From Xestospongia bergquistia (lineage: Eukaryota > Porifera > Demospongiae > Haplosclerida > Petrosiidae): a stretch of DNA of 64,000 bases. Shown here piece after piece: positions 14,955-64,000 of the stretch. The stretch spans positions 2,108,001 through 2,172,000 of the forward strand of contig OZ014424.1 of assembly GCA_963965975.1 (NCBI GenBank), in the 5' to 3' direction. Under the pieces are notes generated by a model. It did no database searches, was not told the DNA's origin, and saw only the letters and a program-made list of their open reading frames with translations. How positions within the stretch are numbered: the stretch's first letter is position 1; every line of letters starts with the position of its first letter. Made by a program: the position numbers and the translations under genes.

Positions 14955-15012
14955 AATACTATCTATAGGAGGAGATTGGAAACTTGATTGATCACTGAGT
15001 CTATCGTGCACA
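14955..15012 (+). promoter_or_regulatory. Conserved 5' leader of the FucT A-D genes
   Basis: The sequence just upstream of FucT C (GGAGATTGGAAACTTGATTG, ATCACTGAGTCTAT) recurs upstream of copy B (1,200-1,249) and copy D (16,250-16,303). It lies directly before the ATG, so it is probably shared 5' UTR or core promoter. Copies E-G have a different shared leader (GATTTGCTGCATCA before ATG), giving two regulatory classes. Confidence 0.45.
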
Positions 15013-16218
15013 ATGTTAGTTGACTTGTTCAATTTAAGATGGAGAAAGATTTTAATCCTATGCCTTCTGACTATGACAACAATATCGTTCATATACGTCA
15101 TTGTCGCTATGAACACGATATCACTTCGACCGCCATTACGGAATCATAAAGCATCTCAACAGGCAAAGGTATTTCCCGTTAAGAAAACTTATCATTGTAG
15201 AAATCTAAGTATTTCAATTTCTAATAGCACCACTACGGTTGGAACTAGTGAAAAAATCATTCTATTATGGACAACGTGGTTTGGCATAAATTTTGTAGAA
15301 TCACTTGGTAATAGTAGACCAATAACATGTGGACCAAATAAAAATAAATGTTTTGTTACTGGTGACAAGAATCTTTATTCTAATAGCAGTGCTGTAGTTT
15401 TTCATATTCCAGAAGGTGATTTATTAAAAAGTATTATTGCTGCCAGTGATATGAGTCGACCACCAGACCAAAGGTGGATTTTCTTCACTCAAGAGCCACC
15501 ACCAAATATTCTTAGATATCACGAATTTCTCCCATATTCCAGATCTCTATTTAACTGGACAATGACATACAAGTTTAGTTCAGATATTAGACAAAGTTAT
15601 TCTTACGTAGTGCCTGGAAAGTTTAAAGGTGGTTATGATCCTAACAGAAATTATCTTGAAAACAGAACTAAAACAGCTATTGCTTTTATAAGTAATTGTA
15701 AACGTCCTCGTTTACATGCAGTAAGAGAATTAAAGAAATATATTGATGTCGACGTCTATGGTAAATGTGGAAACCAATGTAAAGCTGACTGCTTCTCTTT
15801 GTTACCAAAGTACAAGTTTTATTTGGCTTTTGAGAATGCTGTATGTGAAGACTATATTACAGAAAAAACATACAGAAATGCCTTCACTAATGATATAGTT
15901 CCAGTAATAATATCAGGGGCAAACTTGTCAAATCCTGAAGTCGTTCCTCCCAATTCATTTATTAATGGACTTGATTTTAAGAGAGCTGTTGATCTCGCTG
16001 ATTACCTCAAAAAAATTGGTGGTGATCCTCAACTATATAATAAATTCTTCAAATGGAGAGATGAGTGGTCTTTAAGTGATGGTGGGACCTATCTTATACC
16101 TTGTGATGTGTGTAACAAACTGTATGAACCTATTCAATGTATAACAGTATATGATGACATTGAACAATGGTATAGTGTCCAATATGACTGTAAACAATAT
16201 ACAAAATGGAATGAATGA
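15013..16218 (+). CDS. GT10 alpha-1,3-fucosyltransferase-like copy C
   Basis: This intact single-exon gene encodes 401 residues, the usual length of the family. It is a type II Golgi protein: cytosolic residues 1-12, anchor about 13-32, stem to about 75, then the catalytic domain. Landmarks are FTQEPP (158-163), NWTMTYKFSSDI (181-192), YGKCG (249-253), the GDP-fucose-binding core FENAVCEDYITEKTYRNAF (273-291), VPVIISGANLSN (296-307) and PPNSFINGLDF (312-322). The FFKWRDEW motif is followed by a C-terminal tail with Cys 364, 367, 376 and 393, probably disulfide-bonded. N-glycosylation sites include NWT and NRT. ATG 15,013 precedes the anchor directly. Copy D starts 85 bp downstream on the same strand. 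Acceptor and linkage cannot be read from sequence. Confidence 0.92.
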   Translation: MLVDLFNLRWRKILILCLLTMTTISFIYVIVAMNTISLRPPLRNHKASQQAKVFPVKKTYHCRNLSISISNSTTTVGTSEKIILLWTTWFGINFVESLGNSRPITCGPNKNKCFVTGDKNLYSNSSAVVFHIPEGDLLKSIIAASDMSRPPDQRWIFFTQEPPPNILRYHEFLPYSRSLFNWTMTYKFSSDIRQSYSYVVPGKFKGGYDPNRNYLENRTKTAIAFISNCKRPRLHAVRELKKYIDVDVYGKCGNQCKADCFSLLPKYKFYLAFENAVCEDYITEKTYRNAFTNDIVPVIISGANLSNPEVVPPNSFINGLDFKRAVDLADYLKKIGGDPQLYNKFFKWRDEWSLSDGGTYLIPCDVCNKLYEPIQCITVYDDIEQWYSVQYDCKQYTKWNE

Positions 16219-16303
16219 CATCATTTCCTATAGTAAAATAATAATATACGTAGAAGGCGGAGATTTGAAACTTCGTGGTTGATCACAGAGTTTATTGTGC
16301 ACG

Positions 16304-17521
16304 ATGTCTGTTGACTTCATATTCTCCAATTTAACATTGAGAAAGATTTTAATCCTGTCAATTCTATGTATGACAGTATCGTTCGTGTACGTCATCATCG
16401 ATATGAACGCGGAATCGCTTCGAACGCTATCGCGGAGTCATCATGATAATACAGCATCTCAACAGCCAGAGGTACTTCCTGTTAAGAAAACATATCACTG
16501 TAGAAGTTTAAGTACCTCAATTTCTGAAAATATCACTACAGTTGGTAGTAATGGGAAAATAATTTTATTATGGACAACTTTGTTTGGCATGAATTTTGTT
16601 AAATCACTTGGTAATAGTAGACCAATAACATGTGGACCAAATAAAAACAAATGTTTTCTTACTGGTGACAAGAATCTTTATTCAAATAGCAGTGCTGTAG
16701 TTTTTCATATCGTGGAAGATAATTTATTTAGAAGTATTATTGCTGCTTATAATATGAGACGACCACTAGACCAAAGATGGATTTTTTTCACTCAAGAGCC
16801 ACCACCACGTATTTATGAATATAGTGACTTTATCCCATATTCCAGATTTTTATTTAACTGGACAATGACATACAAGTTTAGTTCAGATATAAGACAAAGT
16901 TATGCCTACATAGTTCCTGGAAAGTTTAAAGGTGGTTATGATCCTAACAGAAATTATCTTGAAAACAGAACTAAAACAGCTATTGCTTTTATAAATGATT
17001 GTAAACGTCCTCATTTACATGCAGTAAGGGCATTAAAGAAACACATTGATGTTGATATCTATGGTAAATGTGGAAAACCATGTAAACCAAACTGCTTCTC
17101 TTTGTTACCAAAATACAAGTTTTATTTGGCTTTTGAGAATGCTGTATGTGAAGACTATATTACAGAAAAAACATACAGAAATGCCTTCACTAATGAAATA
17201 GTTCCAGTAATAATATCAGGGGCAAACTTGTCAAATCCTGAAGTCGTTCCTCCCAATTCTTTCATTAATGGACTTGATTTTAAGAGAGCTGCTGATCTAG
17301 CTGATTATCTAAAGAAAATTGGTAGTGATCCTCAAATTTATAATGAGTTCTTCAAATGGAGAGATGAGTGGTCTATAATAGATGGTGGTACCTATCGTAT
17401 ACCTTGTGATGTGTGTAACAAACTGTATGAACCTAATCAATGTATAACAGTATATGGTGACATTCAACAATGGTATAGTGTCCAACATGACTGTAAACAA
17501 TATCCAAAATGGAATAAATGA
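16304..17521 (+). CDS. GT10 alpha-1,3-fucosyltransferase-like copy D
   Basis: Intact, 405 residues from ATG 16,304. The frame is open for three more codons upstream but without another ATG, and copy B's second ATG aligns with this one. Architecture is as in copy C: anchor near 14-33, glycosylated stem, FTQEPP, NWTMTYKF, FENAVCEDYITEKTY and a Cys-rich tail. It is the sister of copy B, with which it shares the ESLRTLSRSHHDN stem that A and C lack. A and C form the other pair, so the gene pair existed before the unit duplicated. The TGA stop at 17,519-17,521 is followed by the same 3' flank as copy B. Confidence 0.92.
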   Translation: MSVDFIFSNLTLRKILILSILCMTVSFVYVIIDMNAESLRTLSRSHHDNTASQQPEVLPVKKTYHCRSLSTSISENITTVGSNGKIILLWTTLFGMNFVKSLGNSRPITCGPNKNKCFLTGDKNLYSNSSAVVFHIVEDNLFRSIIAAYNMRRPLDQRWIFFTQEPPPRIYEYSDFIPYSRFLFNWTMTYKFSSDIRQSYAYIVPGKFKGGYDPNRNYLENRTKTAIAFINDCKRPHLHAVRALKKHIDVDIYGKCGKPCKPNCFSLLPKYKFYLAFENAVCEDYITEKTYRNAFTNEIVPVIISGANLSNPEVVPPNSFINGLDFKRAADLADYLKKIGSDPQIYNEFFKWRDEWSIIDGGTYRIPCDVCNKLYEPNQCITVYGDIQQWYSVQHDCKQYPKWNK

Positions 17522-23800: not shown

Positions 23801-24340
23801 GACTTATTAGTAATCAAGTAACTTAATTTCATTACGAATAGAGTGCAGTCGTAGATGGTGAAATACAATAAGTTCTGAACCAATGATTCAGTAATCATCT
23901 CAAAAGCAATCAGATCAGATCTATATAATAAAGTGCACAAAAAAGTACCAGTAAAGAACAATTATGGTACCTTGCAAGCGTGGCCACACCTACTCAACTA
24001 ATTGCTGTCTGATCAGTTAACAGAATATAGAACTTTGAGTATAGTGTTGTAGCTCAGTCAATACTTGATAGCAACAACCATAGCTCTCTTGCTCAGCTTT
24101 GTTCTTCAAGGAGTAGATGAATCTACATCATACTCGTCCACGCAACAATGCTTCCGATTATCTTTTAGAAAAAACTGTTACTACTCAGACGAGCTTTCTG
24201 ATTTTTTAAAAATACCTTCAATGTGTTTTGATACCAGCGAATTTTAGAAACGCCATAGGAGTTTATCCTGCTAGATACGGCCGGAAGAGATATATCTGTA
24301 CCTCCGCCTACTGTACATTCAATCTCAGATTTGCTGCATC
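23801..24340 (+). other. Intergenic region and FucT F leader
   Basis: It holds a signal-peptide-like open stretch at 24,065-24,247 (IATTIALLLSFVLQG) without an in-frame ATG, not supported as a gene. The FucT F leader (CCTCCGCCTACTGTACATTC, GATTTGCTGCATC) follows. Confidence 0.4.
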
Positions 24341-25564
24341 ATGTTTTCCAAACTCTTCAATTCAAAATGGAGAATGTATTTGTTCATGTGCACTTTGGCT
24401 ATGACAGCACTAACCCTAGTATATATAATTGTCAGTATGAACGTGATATCACTTGGACCACCATCATGGAGTCATCCTGATAATATAACGTCTCAAATTA
24501 TTATCCATTCAAAGTTGTTACCCATTAAGAGAACTTACCATTGTAGAAATCTAAATACTTCAATTCGTGATAAGACCGCTACTGTTGGCAGTAATAGGAA
24601 AATCATTTTATTATGGACAACTTGGCTTGGCAGAGATTTTATTAAATCAATAGGAAGAAGTGGGCCAATAACATGTGGACCAAACAAAAATAAATGTTTT
24701 CTTACTGATGACAAGAATCTTTATTCGAATAGCAGTGCTGTAGTTTTTCATATAGCGGAAAGTAATTTATTAAAAAGTCTTAATTCTGCTAGTAGTATAA
24801 GTCGACCAACTGACCAAAGGTGGATTTTCTTCACTCAAGAGGCACCACCACGTATATATGAATATCGTCATTTTATCCCCTATTCCAGATCTTTATTTAA
24901 CTGGACAATGACATACAAGTTTACTTCAGATATAAGACAAAGTTATGCCTACATAGTTCCTGGAAAGTTTAAAGGTGGTTATGATCCTAACAGAAATTAT
25001 CTTGAAAACAGAACTAAAACAGCTATTGCTTTTATAAGTAATTGTAAACGTCCTCGTTTACGTGCAGCAAGAAAATTAAAGAAATACATTGATGTTGATA
25101 TCTATGGTAAATGTGGAAAGCGATGTAAACCAAACTGCTTCTCTTTGTTACCAAAATACAAGTTTTATTTGGCTTTTGAGAATGCTGTATGTGAAGACTA
25201 TATTACAGAAAAAACATACAGAAATGCCTTCACTAATGATATAGTTCCAGTAATAATATCAGGAGCAAACTTATCAAATCCTGAAGTCGTTCCTCCCAAT
25301 TCTTCCATTAATGGACTTGATTTTAAGAGAGCTGTTGATCTGGCTGATTACCTCAAAAAAATTGGTAGTGATCCGCAACTTTATAACAGATTCTTCAAAT
25401 GGAGAGATGAGTGGTCTATAATAGATGGTGGTACCTATCGTGTACCTTGTGATGTGTGTAACAAGCTGTATGAGCCTATGCAATGTATAAAAGTATATGA
25501 TGACATTGAACAATGGTATAGTGTCCAACATGACTGTAAACAATATCCAAAATGGAATAGGTGA
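24341..25564 (+). CDS. GT10 alpha-1,3-fucosyltransferase-like copy F
   Basis: Intact single exon, 407 residues. Anchor about 12-32 (LFMCTLAMTALTLVYIIVSM), stem, then the core with FTQEAP (Ala where A-D have Pro), NWTMTYKFTSDI, YGKCGKRCKPNC and FENAVCEDYITEKTY, and a C-terminal tail with the CDVC pair. Its closest paralogue is copy G (41,271), near-identical over most of the length and sharing the WLGRDFIKSIGRSGP variant. F, G and the broken E form a subfamily apart from A-D. The ATG is fixed by alignment with copy G. It likely acts on secretory-pathway glycans using GDP-fucose. Confidence 0.92.
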   Translation: MFSKLFNSKWRMYLFMCTLAMTALTLVYIIVSMNVISLGPPSWSHPDNITSQIIIHSKLLPIKRTYHCRNLNTSIRDKTATVGSNRKIILLWTTWLGRDFIKSIGRSGPITCGPNKNKCFLTDDKNLYSNSSAVVFHIAESNLLKSLNSASSISRPTDQRWIFFTQEAPPRIYEYRHFIPYSRSLFNWTMTYKFTSDIRQSYAYIVPGKFKGGYDPNRNYLENRTKTAIAFISNCKRPRLRAARKLKKYIDVDIYGKCGKRCKPNCFSLLPKYKFYLAFENAVCEDYITEKTYRNAFTNDIVPVIISGANLSNPEVVPPNSSINGLDFKRAVDLADYLKKIGSDPQLYNRFFKWRDEWSIIDGGTYRVPCDVCNKLYEPMQCIKVYDDIEQWYSVQHDCKQYPKWNR

Positions 25565-41080: not shown

Positions 41081-41270
41081 TGATGTAATTAGTTCATTAG
41101 TTGTCTAGACTAATGACTCTAATTGTTTATAACACTGTACAATTAAGCATCCTTCTAATTGAATTCAATTCCAAATAATCATGATTATTTACTAGTACAT
41201 TATGTGTATAAGCATTACTGTGACTTAGTAAGTACTTGCATATAACTAGTTATCTCAGATTTGCTGCATC

Positions 41271-42494
41271 ATGTTTTCCAAACTCTTCAATTCAAAATGG
41301 AGAACGTATTTGTTCATGTGCACTTTGGCTATGACAGCAGTAACCCTAGTATATATAATTGTCAGTATGAACATGACATCACTTGGACCACCATCATGGA
41401 GTCATCCTGATAATATAACGTCTCAAATTATTATCCATTCAAAGTTATTACCCATTAAGAGAACTTACCATTATATAAATCTAAGTACTTCAATTCGTGA
41501 TAAGACCGCTACTGTTGGCAGTAATAGGAAAATTATTTTATTATGGACAACTTGGCTTGGCAGAGATTTTATTAAATCGATAGGAAGAAGTGGGCCAATA
41601 ACATGTGGACCAAACAAAAATAAATGTTTTCTTACTGATGACAAGAATCTTTATTCGAATAGCAGTGCTGTAGTTTTTCATATTGTGGAACATAATTTAT
41701 TAAAAAGTCTTAATTCTGCTAGTAGTATAAGTCGACCAACTGACCAAAGGTGGATTTTCTTCACTCAAGAGGCACCACCACGTATATATGAATATCGTCA
41801 TTTTATCCCCTATTCCAGATCTCTATTTAACTGGACAATGACATACAAGTTTAGTTCAGATATAAGACAAAGTTATGCCTACATAGTTCCTGGAAAGTTT
41901 AAAGGTGGTTATGATCCTAACAGAAATTATCTTGAAAACAGAACTAAAACAGCTATTGCTTTTATAAGTAATTGTAAACGTCCTCGTTTACGTGCAGCAA
42001 GAAAATTAAAGAAATATATTGATGTTGATATCTATGGTAAATGTGGAAAGCGGTGTAAACCAAACTGCTTCTCTTTGTTACCAAAATACAAGTTTTATTT
42101 GGCTTTTGAGAATGCTGTATGTGAAGACTATATTACAGAAAAAACATACAGAAATGCCATCACTAATGATATAGTTCCAGTAATAATATCAGGGACAAAC
42201 CTATCAAATCCTGCTGTGGTCCCTCCCAATTCTTTCATTAATGGACTTGATTTTAAGAGAGCTGTTGATCTGGCTGATTACCTCAAAAAACTTGGTAGTG
42301 ATCCTCAACTTTATAATAAATTCTTTAAATGGAGAGATGAGTGGTCTATAATAGATGGTGGTACCTATCGTATACCTTGTGATGTGTGTAACAAACTGTA
42401 TGAACCTAATCAATGTATAAAAGTATATGATGACATTGAACAATGGTATAGTGTCCAATATGACTGTAAACAATATCCAAAATGGAATAAGTGA
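41271..42494 (+). CDS. GT10 alpha-1,3-fucosyltransferase-like copy G
   Basis: Intact single exon, 407 residues, near-identical to copy F. Anchor about 12-32, FTQEAP, NWTMTYKFSSDI, YGKCGKRC, FENAVCEDYITEKTY and a CDVC tail. Differences from F include loss of the first stem Cys (HYINLST for HCRNLNT), AITND for AFTND at the edge of the nucleotide-binding motif, and SGTNLSNPAVV for SGANLSNPEVV. The stem-Cys change may alter a disulfide. The upstream leader GATTTGCTGCATC is shared with F, and homology with F starts only about 25 bp before the ATG. Confidence 0.92.
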   Translation: MFSKLFNSKWRTYLFMCTLAMTAVTLVYIIVSMNMTSLGPPSWSHPDNITSQIIIHSKLLPIKRTYHYINLSTSIRDKTATVGSNRKIILLWTTWLGRDFIKSIGRSGPITCGPNKNKCFLTDDKNLYSNSSAVVFHIVEHNLLKSLNSASSISRPTDQRWIFFTQEAPPRIYEYRHFIPYSRSLFNWTMTYKFSSDIRQSYAYIVPGKFKGGYDPNRNYLENRTKTAIAFISNCKRPRLRAARKLKKYIDVDIYGKCGKRCKPNCFSLLPKYKFYLAFENAVCEDYITEKTYRNAITNDIVPVIISGTNLSNPAVVPPNSFINGLDFKRAVDLADYLKKLGSDPQLYNKFFKWRDEWSIIDGGTYRIPCDVCNKLYEPNQCIKVYDDIEQWYSVQYDCKQYPKWNK

Positions 42495-56178: not shown

Positions 56179-59100
56179 TTAATTAACATTAACAGCATAC
56201 ACTTTTTTAACTTCTTTCTTGTTATCATGTTTCACACTGATATTTCTAAATGTATGAGTAGGGTTTAAAATGTATGAAGTGAATGAACTGAATTTGGACA
56301 TGACACTTGGTATTTGGAATCTCTTTTGTTTCATCTCCCTCTTGATAGTGTATCTATCTGCATAACTTAATGTCTTTGTTATTTCATGAGTTGATTGTAA
56401 TGACTTAACTGGTTCACTTAATTCTAGTAATGATGACATTGTTTCTTTCTCTTTTGTTCCCTCTAATTTAGCTCTTGTTTGTCCTCCATATTTGATTAAT
56501 AGTTCACTAATACTTTCCTGTTTAATATTATTAGCATCATCTAATGGTGTCCTCTTGTCAGCAATAAGATTAGGATTAGCATTTCTCTCTAAAAGTGTCT
56601 CTACTATTGTAAAGGATTTACCTCCTCTAACTGCAAAGAACAAAGGGGTGAATCCCCAATGACTTTCTTGTTTATTAACATCAGCTCCAGTTTGTATGAG
56701 AGCATCCACTATATCAACATGTCCACATGATGAAGCTACCATGAGTGGAGTAAGACCTAGAACCAGTGAAGTATCTGGACTATCTAACGTCTTCATTATG
56801 ACTACAGCTAAATCTCCTTTAACACATGAGTCTAGTAGTTCTCTCTGGTCATTACTGAGGTGTGGAAGTTTATATGAGAGGAAGGTAATGAGAGTAGGGT
56901 GACCACCATAACATGATAGTACTACTGCTTTTTCAATCTCATCATTAGTGGGTTCAGCTTTATCTAAGAGCATATTAACAAGGTCTCTGTTACCACTATA
57001 AGCTGCTAATGAAAATGCTGTTGATCCATCATATGCTAACAAGTGAGGATTTACTTGCAATTGTATCAAACATTCTACAACTTCAAGATGTCCATACTGA
57101 CAAGCTAGCATTAGGGCATTGTAATCATATTTATTTAAAATATTAACATCTACACCCCATTGGAGAAGTCGTTTAACAGTTTGAGTATGACCATTTAAAC
57201 TAGCTAGCATTAGGGCAGTATATCCATTTTCATTCTGAGCATTATTGTCAGCATGTTCTTTTAGCAATAGCTCAGTGATCTGGGTATGACCATTTAAACT
57301 AGCTAGCATTAGGGCAGTCAATCCATCTTTTTCCTGAGTATTAATGTCAGCATCTTCTTTTAGCAAAATCTCAACAACCTGAGTATGACCATTACAACTA
57401 GCTAGTATTAGAGCTGTCACTCCGTCATTTCCCAGGTGATTAATGTTGGCGTGTTCTTTAAGTAGCAGTTCGACAACCTGGGTATGACCATTTTGACTAG
57501 CTATTATAAGGGCAGTCCATCCATCCTTTCTCTGAGTATTAACGTCAGCATGTTCTTTGAGTAGTAGCTCAACAACTTGGGTATGACCATTTAAACTAGC
57601 TAGCATTAGGCCAGTCCATTCTCCTTCTTCCTGAGTATTTATGTTTGCATGTTTTTTAAGTAGCATTTCAACAACCTGGGTATGACCATTTAAACTAGCT
57701 ATCATAAGGGCAGTCCTTCCATCTTTTTTCTGAGTATTAATGTCAGCATGTTCTTTGAGTAGTAGTTCAACAACCTTGTGATGACTGTTTTGACTAGCTA
57801 GCATTAGGGCAGTCCATCCATCTTTTTCCTGAGTATTAACGTCAGCATGTTCTTTCAGCAATAGCTTAACAACTTGGGTATGACCATTTAAACTAGCTAG
57901 CATTAGGCCAGTCCATTCATTTTCTTCCTGAGTATTTATGTTGGCATGTTCTTTGAGTAGTAGTTCAACAACCAGGGTATGACCATTTTGACTAGCTATC
58001 ATAAGGGCAGTCCTTCCATCTTTTTTCTGAGTATTAACGTCAGCATGTTCTTTGAGTAGTAGTTCAACAACCTGATGATGACCCTCTTGACTAGCTATCA
58101 TTAGTGCGGTCCATCCATCTTTTTCCTGAGTATTAATGTCAGCATCTTCTTTTAGCAAAATCTCAACAACTTGGGTATGACCATTTAAAGTAGCTAGCAT
58201 TAGGCCAGTCAATTCATCTTCTTCCTGAGTATTTATGTTGGCATGTTCTTTGAGTAGTAGTTCAACAACCTGGGTATGACCATTTCGACTAGCTATCATA
58301 AGGGCAGTCCTTCCATCATTTTTCTGAATATTAACGTCAGCATGTTCTTTGAGTAGTAGTTCAACAACCTGATGATGACCCTCTTGACTAGCTATCATTA
58401 GTGCGGTCCATCCATCTTTTTCCTGAGTATTAATGTCAGCATCTTCTTTTAGCAAAATCTTAACAACCTGAGTATGACCATTACAACTAGCTAGCATTAG
58501 AGCTGTTACTCCGTCATTTCCCAGGTGATTAATGTTGGCGTGTTCTTTAAGTAGCAGTTCGACAACCTGGGTATGACCATTTTGACTAGCTATCATAAGG
58601 GCAGTCCATCCATCTTTTCTCTGAGTATTAATGTCAGCATGTTCTTTGAGTAATAGTTCAACAACTTGGTGATGACCATTTTGACTAGCTATCATTAGGG
58701 CAGTCCATCCATCTTTTTTCTGAGTATTAACATCAGCATGTTCTTTCAGTAATAGTTCAACAACCTGATGATGACACTCTTGACTAGCTATCATTAGTGC
58801 AGTCCTTCCATCTTTTTCCTGAGTATTAATGTCAGCATGTTCTTTCAACAATAGCTCAACAACTTGGATATGACCATTTAAACTAGCTAGCATTAGGCCA
58901 GTCCATTCTTCTTCTTCCTGAGTATTTATGTTGGCATGTTCTTTAAGTAGCATTTCAACAACCTGGGTATGACCATTTAAACTAGCTATCATAAGGGCAG
59001 TCCTTCCATCTTTTTTCTGAGTATTAATGTCAGCATGTTCTTTGAGTAGTAGTTCAACAACCTCGTGATGACCGTTTTGACTAGCTAGCATTAGGGCAGT

Positions 59101-62100
59101 CCATCCATCTTTTTTCTGAGTATTAACATCAGCATGTTCTTTGAGTAATAGTTCAACAACCTGATGATGACCCTCTTGACTAGCTATCATTAGTGCAGTC
59201 CATCCATCTTTTTCCTGAGTATTAATGTCAGCATCTTCTTTTAGCAATAGTTCAACGACCTGAGTATGACCATTACAACTAGCTAGCATTAGAGCTGTCA
59301 CTCCGTCTTTTCCCTGGTGATTAATGTTGGCATGTTCTTTAAGTAGCAGTTCAACAACCTGGGTATGACCATTTAAACTAGCTATCATAAGGGCAGTCCA
59401 TCCATGTTCTTCCTGATTATTAATGTCAGCATTTTCTTTAAGTAGTAGTTCAACAACATCAATATTGCCATCTCTGGCAGCTTCATGAAGACTGACATCA
59501 ATCTCTATTAAGGATACTAATATGTAATCTTTAGCTTCTATTGAATTTTGAAGAACATATCCGAAGCTAAAGCTATGGTTATAATCTTCTATTAAAATAG
59601 TTTGATCACCAATATATACTTCATAAACACCAACCTGATACATGAACTCCCTTTGATCTATTGCAATGACTATAAGACTGTCTAACTGAGACTTGGGAAC
59701 TACAAACTTACAAACACATGACAATCCTTCTTCCTCAATTATAATGTGATTCAGAAAACGAGTCTCTTCAGAAAATGAGTAATTGAGAAATTTGTGTAAA
59801 TGGACTACATTTTTCTGTTGCCATTGTTCATGAAACTTGATGATCATTGTACATGTCCTTGTTGTAGTAACTGGTGGTTGAAGTAATGGTATGTGTTTAA
59901 TAGCCTGTCCAAACAACTGTAGTTGAGTAGTTTCTTCAAAAACCCTAACCATACTAATGTAGTCTTGTAAACGATTTTGAAGTTTACCTCCAATAAACTT
60001 ATCCACTATTTTCCTTAATAGGTCTATATTTAAGAAATAGTAATGAGGTTGAAGAACATTGAAGAGTTGGTCTATATTGTCCACTTTTAATTCAGTGTCC
60101 CCAAGATAATGATGAAGAAATTCTACAACATCAACAATGAGAACAGTTCCTTCTGTTATTAGTTTCTGTAGACTTGATAGAATTGCTTCATTAAGAATTG
60201 TAAAGCTGTCACAGATTTTCAAGAGTTGTTCAAGTACCTCTTCCTCACTTTTCTTGATCTTCATAACACTAAACTGTTGTAACAATTTACAGATATCTTC
60301 TCTTCCTTCTTCTCTTACTTTATCTACAATACTCTGGTCATTAATAAAGACATTAGATTGAGCACCAGCTTTAAGTAGTTGTTCTATAACTTGAAGTGAT
60401 TTGTGTTTTGTTATAGCATATACTAGTGGACTGTACCCATCATTGTCTGTACTGTTGACATTAGCTCCTGCTTGTAAGAGGACTTGTACTGTCTCTGTAT
60501 GTCCACAAGATAAGGCTATCATAAGAGGAGTGATGCCATTAGCTAGTGTACAATTGATATTGACATTGGTGTCATAAATATGGCTTTTTGTGGTATTGTG
60601 ATCTCCTTCAGCACATAAAACAAAAAGTTGGAATTCATCTGGTATAATGATATCAATGCTTCTTCAACAGCATTCTTGAATTTGTTAAGTGTTGTTGATT
60701 GTTTAAATTCTTCAAGATGCTGTCTGTAAGTCTGCATATCCCATAGCAATCTTTCTTTAATGAGAAAGTCTTCATTTTCAATGATAACTTCTAACACTTC
60801 AATATCAAGGTAGCTGTAATGAGGCCAAAGGGTCTCAAACAGATTGTTCATATCTGTAGTATTGGTTAGCCCTTTTATTCGGAAATATTCTCCGAGATAA
60901 CTTGCAATGCCATTAAATGTAAGTGTTTTCTTTTCGATTAAAGTGTTGAGAGCCTGTTTGGTATTTTCAACTAATTTTACAAATTTACTGTACAAACGTT
61001 TCAAGTTTTCAGCTACAGGATCATCTGGAGTGACTGTTATTTTTTGGAGTTGTCCATCTACAGTTAGTAAATCAAAATGTGAAGACTTCTCATCTTGTTT
61101 TTGTGTCTGTTCATTTTTATCACCTTGTTTAAAAAAGAAACAGTAAAGAATAACAATGAAATTATCATTAACTTACCTCCAAAGGTATTAGTTATCTTTG
61201 TATGATGGGATCCTATATAATGAAAAACACTAATAAAGCAAAGTCCTTACCCAGCCTAGCTTCAGAGCTTAATAGGGATACTAAACAAAACCATCAAAAC
61301 AAAACAAGATGCATGTAGTGACATCAGGTCTATGCATTCAGTAAATAACTTTGTCTGCATATATTGTAGGCTCGAATCTATACCTGTTCAGCAAAAATGA
61401 CTTAAGTTAATTTTCAAAGAAATGTACCATTATTAAGAGAGCACAGTGAAATAGTTTCCTAGAATCTCTCAGAAGAGTAACTACATCCCAAACAGCTAGC
61501 CTCGTATGATTTAATACTTTATTTATGTAAAGTAGTCTATTATTCTATCTATTAGAATGGTGCTAATAGGTTCTCTGATAATCATCACACTATGAAATTA
61601 GTGTATAAGAAAACTCGCTCATAGATTAGAGTATATGATGTTTACATGTAATATATGGTATGTATGTTTATAGACATAATATAGTAATATATTGAACTTT
61701 ATTTTATAATATAATACATTTATAGATTTGTATCCATGGAGGAGTGCACGCTTGTTACAGCTTGCTTAGTTACTATCATAATTTCACAAATAACAGGTAT
61801 GACAAGAATTCTATTGGAATGATACTATACTTTAATTATTTTATTGGTTAAAACAATTTTAATAATGAGAACAATACATATTTGTGGCAATTCATCTCAA
61901 AAATAAGGACAACAATCACTCTACATTACTGACCTTGATGTGTAATATCTTGTTCATCACATGAAAGATCTAGTGAGATATCACATTGCTTTTTGACTTC
62001 TTCCATCCAGTCTTGACATAACTTTTGAGCAGCTAATTTAGTAGGACCACCTTCACTGGAGAGACATTGCAAGAAAAGTTGACAATGTTCTTGTAAATTT

Positions 62101-63174
62101 GAAATATTGCTTGCTAATTTCATTCCACTTTCAAATTCACCAATTACATTATAAACAGTTGGAGAATCTCTGACTGATTCACTTATCAGTCTTTTAGAAT
62201 ACATTGATGCAGAAACTCGTGATAAACATCTACTTAACTGGTTACTTAAGTCAGAAAAATGGCTTGTCAGTACACTCTTCAACACTTTATGAACTTCATC
62301 ACTTTCTGAAGAAAATGTCTGGCCTCCATCCTGGCCAATTATTTCTTCTTTCTGTCCTTCTGGTAGCCCTTGATAAAGAAAGGAAGCTGTAAGGATTGAG
62401 CTTAGATGAGTGAACTGTCAATCTAGTTTCACTCATTTTAATGGAGTAAGTCATATCAGAACTGTATCAAAAGACTAGCTATGTCTTTCAATATATGAAA
62501 TCAATAGAAGATACCTTGTTATGTACTTTACTAAACTATTATACTACATTGATAATTATTTTAAAGTAATAGTATATAATGAACTATATATAGTAGATAC
62601 CTTCATCTTTAATATCTAGTTGTCTTCTAAGTGTAGTAGCTACATCATCATCACAACTCTCAACAGCTGAAATGAGTTCTTCCCAACAAGGGGCAGTACC
62701 ATTTGTAATCCACCATTGTAAACCTTCTTCTAGAGCAAAGTGGTAGTCTTGATCAATGCTGGCCATTGTCTTGAGTCTTCTCCTCTCCTCTAGTGACACA
62801 CCTAGAAGAATAGTGAGTTCGTTCCACTTGTTTTTAACAACAAAACCACTCTTAATAAGAAGTCGTAGAGCATTAATTGATGTTAACTCTATTAAAGTAA
62901 ATTGAATCATCATTCCATCAGTTATATGTTTTTATGCTTACTGACCTGTTTTAGGTCCAGGGTTGAGTTCAATATCACCTGATAAAATGAGGAGAAGTAA
63001 AAGAAACAAAACTAGAGAGAATATCAAAGCACCACCACCCTCATCTCCTGATATCAATAGTGACTTTATCCATCCAGGGGTATCAGTGTTAGAAGGAGTC
63101 TTTTTAGTAGTATATGGTATATGATGACAATACCATAACCCAATACTAGCTCTCCATTGAGAGATATCAATCAT
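56179..63174 (-). CDS. 2A-leader / death domain / ankyrin-repeat protein, four exons
   Basis: Exons (minus): 62,946-63,174, 62,601-62,888, 61,934-62,368 and 56,179-61,123; every join is phase 1 (ACAG/GTCAGT, GAAG/GTATCT, CAAG/GTCAGT; acceptors AATAG, TCAAG, ACAAG). Exon 1 encodes 76 residues with a hydrophobic helix (about 49-64) running into SGDIELNPGP, a 2A ribosome-skipping motif. Exon 2 is a death domain (KNKWNELTILLGVSLEERRR..., then GLQWWITNGTAPCWEELISA). Exon 3 is helical. Exon 4 begins with a helical module (LFETLWPHYSYLDIEVLEVI), two ankyrin repeats, a second module (LFNVLQPHYYFLNIDLLRKI), a beta-rich section, then about 30 ankyrin repeats and a basic tail. About 1,960 residues in all. 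The frame slips by one base near 60,640 (LYQMNS should read LYPDEF), either a real lesion or an assembly error. Probably an intracellular death-fold signalling or immune protein. Confidence 0.78.
57025..59499 (-). repeat. Tandem ankyrin array, 25 units of exactly 99 bp
   Basis: Twenty-five consecutive 33-residue ankyrin repeats without indels, of which the first 23 (59,499-57,223) are nearly identical at DNA level (GHTQVVELLLKEHADINTQ). Blocks recur as higher-order units: the NHLGNDG-VTAL-CNGH run occurs at units 10-11 and again at 21-22, with a near match at 2-3. Degenerate units continue to about 56,500. The homogeneity implies recent expansion or gene conversion. Confidence 0.92.
62953..62979 (-). 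promoter_or_regulatory. 2A-like translational recoding (ribosome-skip) motif
   Basis: Nine codons read GDIELNPGP, matching the consensus D-[VI]-E-x-N-P-G-P, directly after a Leu-rich hydrophobic helix and Ser. In this motif family the Gly-Pro bond is not formed: the upstream peptide is released after Gly and translation resumes at Pro. Predicted products are a leader of about 73 residues and a Pro-initiated body starting three residues before the death-domain exon. The exon is spliced in matching phase to the death domain, so the motif belongs to this gene. Confidence 0.8.
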
Positions 63175-63680: not shown

Positions 63681-63902
63681 TCTTTTTTCTTTAACTCTCT
63701 CAATGATACTGAACAAAACAAGACCAAATAAATAGTCTGAGACAAGATCAACTAAAGAACAAAGAAATAGAAAATAAATCATGGAATAATATGTGAAGGC
63801 GGTGTATTAAATATATGAAATATTGGACACTTACATTAAATTACCTAGTAAATATATGTATCTTGCATCTTTGATCCATCCATCTTGTATCTATGTACTC
63901 AG
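63680..63902. repeat. Ankyrin-locus flank repeat, copy 2
   Basis: Partner of 54,921-55,135. It runs directly into the ankyrin coding end at 63,891, whereas copy 1 runs into unrelated sequence. Confidence 0.85.
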
Positions 63903-64000
63903 ATAGGCAGTTGCTCCATCATTTGTCTGGAGATTAATGTCTGCATGCTCTTTGAGTAATAGTTCAACAACTTGGGTATGATCATTTTCACTAGCTGTCA
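63891..64000 (-). CDS. 3' end of a second ankyrin-repeat gene (continues beyond window)
   Basis: The minus strand reads TASENDHTQVVELLLKEHAD, then INLQTNDGATAYLST and stop (TAG, 63,893-63,891). This is one ankyrin repeat of the same subtype as the array at 57-59 kb, then an abrupt end inside the next repeat. It lacks the long degenerate C-terminus of its neighbour, so it is either truncated or spliced differently. Its upstream part lies outside the window. Confidence 0.7.
   Translation of the reverse strand, partial: TASENDHTQVVELLLKEHADINLQTNDGATAYLST

Follow-up and report, generated by a model that had tools for sequence, protein, structure and literature searches.

A family of leader exons with a predicted StopGo (2A) motif at the front of putative immune and cell-death genes in the sponge Xestospongia bergquistia

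The window, that is, the whole 64-kb stretch of Xestospongia bergquistia DNA analysed here, contains on its minus strand a gene whose first coding exon encodes a hydrophobic leader ending in a 2A (StopGo) motif. This leader exon is not a one-off but a member of a family of more than 100 leader exons in the genome, mostly on genes of putative immune or cell-death type, and the exon, its phase, its conservation and its partner genes can be read directly from the DNA. The explanation that we consider likely is that a StopGo exon heads immune or cell-death genes, where skipping would release a tail-anchored leader and a cytosolic body, whereas an unskipped minority would go to membranes. Two proteins would probably be produced from each leader-bearing mRNA.

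The translation of exon 1 in the window gene is MIDISQWRASIGLWYCHHIPYTTKKTPSNTDTPGWIKSLLISGDEGGGALIFSLVLFLLLLLILSGDIELNPGPKT plus one base, followed by GT, with the ATG at 63174 on the minus strand. The leader exon (63174-62946, minus strand) ends in LSGDIELNPGPKT, and its phase-1 donor leads into a death-like exon at 62888-62601. The initial annotation had described a leucine-rich stretch with GDIELNPGP joined in phase 1 to a death-domain exon; letters and coordinates are correct on the minus strand, and the GT donor after 62946 and the AG acceptor before 62888 are both in phase 1. The features of the gene are the following:

62946-63174, minus strand: coding part of exon 1, comprising the 74 leader residues up to and including NPGP, followed by K-T, one further base and a phase-1 GT donor
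63127-63174, minus strand: conserved N-terminal motif MIDxxQWRxxIGLWxC (pN/pS 0.32), with little or no variation at several positions across 29 non-redundant leaders
62983-63030, minus strand: hydrophobic segment ALIFSLVLFLLLLLIL, best 17-mer hydropathy 3.15, ending 9 residues before the Gly-Pro bond
62953-62976, minus strand: 2A/StopGo octapeptide DIELNPGP, with a predicted skip between Gly and Pro
62889-62945, minus strand: intron 1, 57 nt, GT...AG; paralogues with the same second exon have a similar short intron
62601-62888, minus strand: exon 2, type I death-like domain, 288 nt, phase 1-1, AG acceptor before 62888
61934-62368, minus strand: exon 3, phase 1-1, encoding a domain that Pfam does not recognise, with matches at many paralogue loci
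61177-61212, minus strand: possible mini-exon of 36 nt, phase 1-1, the phase being assigned by eye and uncertain
60543-61123, minus strand: exon 5 region, whose frame stops at 60543 in the window copy
56179-60663, minus strand: ankyrin-repeat ORF of 1494 codons, whose frame differs from that of exon 5 in the window copy

GDIELNPGP occupies 62979-62953, after the leucine-rich stretch and ahead of KT, and the leader copy is the sole NPGP in the 64-kb window, no second one being found in six frames. From the start codon onward, the frame is open through exons 1-3. Regarding the region ahead of the start codon, an AG is located 2 nt ahead of the ATG in 11 of the 29 non-redundant leaders and 6 nt ahead of it in 9 (window leader included); this AG resembles a splice acceptor, and the leader exon may be preceded by an upstream non-coding exon. 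Just upstream of the leader exon, at 63891-64000 (minus strand), the end of another ankyrin-type ORF can be recognised by eye, so such ankyrin-type genes may lie in tandem at this place. The window also holds closely similar repeated ORFs, fucosyltransferase-like by eye, at 371-2395, 14992-17521, 24275-25564 and 41250-42494.

The gene had been thought to continue onward to a giant ankyrin protein, which fails for the window copy. There, the ankyrin ORF (60663-56179) does not share the frame of exon 5 (from 61123), because about 870 nt are missing at 60543-60663. This segment is present and open in all 5 distinct paralogues compared (six reads, of which L009 and L022 come from one gene), in which a single open frame runs from the exon-5 domain into the beginning of the ankyrin repeats, with about 290 extra residues between the two. 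The window copy probably stops short of the ankyrin repeats, its body being predicted to end at 60543, and may represent a pseudogene or reflect an error in the assembly. The argument from the family is independent of this damage.

The genome searched comprises 146 Mb in 21 contigs. It contains 162 exact octapeptide-coding sites (90 and 72 by strand) and none for the reversed pattern used as control, which rules out a chance origin of the octapeptide. A 31-residue leader-2A query gave at least 147 matches; six LINE-like rows were removed from these, two of them read (L048, L066) and the others placed by location, leaving 141 leader sites. Related genes, in which the initial annotation had proposed to look for the same exon, do carry it: the leader's first 40 residues, used as query without the 2A letters, found at least 124 places. 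This N-terminus-only search is a less biased test of 2A retention than pN/pS on exons chosen for NPGP. Among the matches listed, 115 of 124 places have a 2A downstream and 9 are broken or truncated. The 2A was recognised by a same-strand downstream leader-2A match in 114 of those 115 and by direct reading in L053 (GDIEINPGP); it is exact by letters in 81, has G for D in one (L063, GGVELNPGP) and is identified by alignment only in 33, and a stop codon lies inside the head in 2 of the 115. All 9 places without 2A were fetched, and stops, frame shifts or truncation were found in each. L075 and L077 keep an open frame as far as the hydrophobic run, their only damage being a frame-shifting loss at or beside the 2A, so that 2A damage is not limited to copies ruined elsewhere.

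Related to this, the exact octapeptide is present, among the sites listed, in 75 of the 81 leader-type matches of the 31-residue query; the other six comprise two broken copies (L065, L068), the G-for-D copy L063 and three that were not read. The donor is equally regular: GT is found exactly 7 nt past NPGP in 43 of the 49 other distinct leaders read, as in the window, and at another phase-1 position, judged by eye, in the remaining six.

The genes downstream of the leader are of the death-like/ankyrin, death-like/CARD-like/NACHT, death-like/GBP and TPR-CHAT kinds. When exons were joined on trial so as to give the longest open frame, the second exons proved to be type I death-like, CARD-like (L031, L040), type III death-like (L038, L042, L067) or TPR (L051), and those of about ten copies have no recognised domain. 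The leaders of L030 and L031 share 95.4% DNA identity, yet they are followed by different second exons. The locus L069 contains death-like, CARD-like and NACHT (E 1.2e-23) parts and a long C-terminal part, and L071 combines a death-like domain with a GBP GTPase (E 1.1e-33). L073 (C1:2168200-2175200, minus strand) is a TPR-CHAT gene (CHAT E 1.3e-44) that begins with a divergent leader-2A exon; of the 13 CHAT places in the genome, it is the one for which a leader was read upstream. Many loci of contig C14 have ankyrin-type repeats downstream, like the window. L070 has a part that resembles ZU5 by eye, with no Pfam match.

These associations depend on strand and position. Among the matches listed, a type I (window-type) death-like exon lies within 1.5 kb on the same strand at 72 of the 141 leader sites, NACHT within 6 kb on the same strand at 47, and GBP downstream on the same strand at 5. 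The type III death family has 903 candidates, and when the best 150 are taken, 24 of them have a leader, with the exon within 2.5 kb on the same strand at 24 of the 141 sites. At least one of these four overlapping partners was found at 103 of the 141 sites and none at 38, again among the matches listed. For type I, NACHT and type III, respectively, the strand-flipped control gave 0, 0 and 0, the maxima of 300 random rotations were 2, 4 and 3, and jitter of 8-40 kb inside clusters reached 13, 21 and 7. Seen from the NACHT side (94 places listed, one match below cut-off having been dropped from 95), 48 are preceded within 6 kb by a same-strand leader, one has an opposite-strand leader within 6 kb, and 19 have a same-strand leader downstream, as expected of tandem neighbours. 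A leader is absent at 46 of these 94, of which 29 form a dense cluster at C2:8.83-9.15 Mb with no leader-2A upstream, apparently a separate NLR-like group. For GBP, 16 of 27 rows were used, weak or split rows being left out by hand, and 5 of the 16 places have a leader upstream.

The name "death-like" given to exon 2 requires some explanation. Window exon 2 has no match in Pfam, including PF00531 (Death) at its curated cut-off; at E values up to 0.1, PF00531 matches weakly 5 of 8 aligned exon-2 members (best 1.1e-4). Two places, C7:2358992 and C7:2506394, match both window exon 2 (E 3.3e-8 and 1.9e-7) and PF00531 over cut-off, and therefore link the exon to the Death model. Single-sequence AlphaFold prediction gave six helices with a pLDDT of 52.8, too poor for a structure search. 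In profile searches of the PDB, the best match of type I was weak (E 0.34) and was to a chain labelled "Leucine-rich repeat and death domain-containing protein", the type III death-like exon had no match up to E 1, and the CARD-like exon matched only designed or unrelated helical chains. The CARD-like label is a reading by eye, without Pfam support.

The leaders themselves are under uneven constraint. In the 50 leaders read, thinned to 29 at 85% identity, pN/pS is 0.32 in the N-terminal motif, 0.96 in the linker, 0.50 in the hydrophobic run, 0.23 in LLILSG (just before the octapeptide) and 0.12 in the octapeptide, this last value being biased low because the exons were chosen for NPGP. Constraint is thus strong on the octapeptide, LLILSG and the N-terminal motif and absent on the linker. 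NPGP is spelled in 12 ways in the DNA of the 50 leaders. Length to the final Pro is 62-78 residues, the last 19 alignment columns being gapless; 35-54 residues, including the conserved motif, precede the hydrophobic run, whose helix ends 3-12 residues before the Gly-Pro bond (7-9 in 24 of 29 leaders).

The octapeptide D(V/I)ExNPGP is in frame and its upstream context is leucine-rich, as in F2A. Like the picornaviral F2A, the leaders have the canonical DxExNPGP, a leucine-rich helix and conserved Leu at F2A positions 6, 7 and 9, which in the sequence comparison is where the hydrophobic run varies least. Skipping by F2A is lowered by L7A and L9A (PMC12846837), and the retention of Leu at these positions is more than a plain signal or anchor would need. 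Unlike F2A, the leaders occupy an N-terminal exon of apparent host genes, and their variable x is Leu in 45 of 50, whereas it is Ser in F2A. With regard to viral relatives, one alignment scan of viral_contigs gave 51 pattern matches, none of which was confirmed by tblastn.

In the mechanism that we propose, exon 1 would be a reusable 5' coding exon which places a StopGo (2A) element at the front of immune and cell-death genes; we infer splicing, skipping, tail-anchoring and dual location from the features described above. The leucine-rich helix and DxExNPGP, both in the ribosome exit tunnel, would block formation of the Gly-Pro bond. A leader of about 61-77 residues with NPG at its end would be released, and the ribosome would continue into the body. 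Release at Gly and restart at Pro are what the canonical octapeptide and the leucine-rich helix predict. The body, whether death-like/ankyrin, death-like/CARD-like/NACHT, death-like/GBP or TPR-CHAT, would start at Pro and be cytosolic. A helix 3-12 residues from the bond is within the length of the exit tunnel at the moment of decision, so skipping would precede signal recognition. Assuming skipping, the hydrophobic segment lies near the C-terminus of the predicted released leader, which by geometry alone is the arrangement of a tail-anchored protein; the leader would be a small membrane protein of this type, made one-for-one with each sensor and with its conserved head facing the cytosol. The minority of unskipped chains would keep the helix near the N-terminus and go to membranes. 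The membrane form may be mainly the released leader itself rather than the unskipped full-length protein.

The nearest precedent is given by the SpNLR2A leaders of NLR proteins in Strongylocentrotus purpuratus (Roulston et al. 2016, PMC4981915). In that work, the leader of SpNLR2A6 has about 80% recoding and its unskipped product goes to membranes, this dual targeting being observed in cell-free, HeLa and plant assays. The resemblance suggested by the initial annotation is well founded, in that a hydrophobic N-terminal leader ending in DxExNPGP stands on a large gene family in both animals, and here also at the N-terminal end of NACHT genes (LRRs are not called by Pfam). The differences concern length (26 residues in the urchin, 62-78 here), the conserved QWRxxIGLW head and the range of partners, since the sponge leader is also found on ankyrin, GBP and TPR-CHAT genes. 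Moreover, the two products per mRNA were demonstrated by assay for the urchin leaders and are proposed here from sequence.

A reading closely modelled on the urchin, which is a serious contender although somewhat short of an even chance, is that the unskipped minority is what matters, the leader acting as an N-terminal signal that directs the body into the secretory pathway or to membranes, with the skipped majority left in the cytosol. It overlaps the explanation that we favour, the difference being which product matters. The urchin assays and the partly shared gene class (NACHT genes) speak for it, but the 35-54 residues and conserved motif that precede the hydrophobic run count against it, because a simple signal would not need a long conserved head. 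A more speculative possibility, to which we give little weight, is that the StopGo exon is mobile and has been distributed among immune effectors unrelated to one another, supplying each sensor with a 1:1 tail-anchored QWRxxIGLW microprotein, maybe a membrane adaptor, and that the pair senses translation. As StopGo needs release and elongation, a translation-disturbing pathogen would in that case move the sensor from cytosol to membrane and trip it.

It is unlikely that the leader is a plain signal anchor whose NPGP tail is a non-skipping relic, the proteins being membrane-bound receptors. Such a reading would agree with the available text of PMC12909245, where transmembrane segments predicted in NLR genes of sponges (Amphimedon, Dysidea avara) are taken as putative membrane-bound NLRs; 2A-like, StopGo or ribosome skipping does not occur in that text. 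It would also agree with the presence in this genome of LINE-like ORFs with a leucine run, DxExNPGP and a PHD finger. Nonetheless, there is less variation in the octapeptide and the preceding LLILSG than in the hydrophobic run. Moreover, wherever a copy that was read has a substituted or missing 2A, its frame is broken as well (L065, L068, L074-L082); the exception is L063 with G for D, a class described as still working in some contexts (PMC12846837).

The LINE-like 2A ORFs (C4:8.60-8.91 Mb, C1:11.04 and 20.45 Mb) are a separate class in the same genome, whose LINE label we assume by resemblance. Odon et al. 2013 are said to have described 2A-bearing non-LTR retrotransposon ORFs, and the leaders are like these in having a leucine run and DxExNPGP. 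Unlike the leaders, the LINE-like ORFs lack the QWR head and read on in open frame into a PHD finger, which is over cut-off in 2 of the 3 scanned (L048, L052, L060), L066 being similar by eye. The initial annotation had asked whether exon 1 could be part of a LINE, and it does not lie in such an ORF: a LINE origin was rejected given that the leaders have a donor instead, PHD is found only in the other class, and partners follow downstream on the same strand. In favour of a retrotransposon one may cite the familiar occurrence of 2A motifs in viruses and non-LTR elements, as well as the 20 of 100 octapeptide sites, among the sites listed, that have no match to the 31-residue leader-2A query (of ten read, three are leader-type, L051, L053 and L055, and L052 and L060 have a PHD finger over cut-off). 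It is nevertheless most improbable that exon 1 lies within an upstream non-LTR retrotransposon with no splice link to the death-like exon, since the donor place is common to the leaders and a death-like exon or NACHT follows on the same strand in 88 of the 147 leader-2A matches listed, against 0 of 141 when strands are flipped. The LINE-like 2A-PHD ORFs are a possible source of the leader 2A.

Among the papers listed from the open-licence literature, none reports 2A leaders in sponges, nor is there any mention of them in the available portions of PMC5009743 and PMC5890393 ("2a-like" in the latter belongs to the name of an unrelated gene). Rao et al. 2025 (Cell Rep 44, 115822), which is outside that scope, is reportedly a survey of viral and cellular 2As and may include such genes. 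New features are the scale, the range of partners, the conserved head QWRxxIGLW and the resemblance of the leader in shape to a tail-anchored microprotein. The use of StopGo in cellular genes is described as rare (PMC12846837), and in this sponge selection has preserved the motif in about a hundred host genes, which belong to several immune types. Should skipping occur as predicted, NLRs now considered membrane-bound could in some cases be mostly cytosolic, and an extra conserved peptide, which annotation would overlook, would come from each gene. These data also raise the question of whether the urchin and sponge leaders have a shared origin or have arisen twice.
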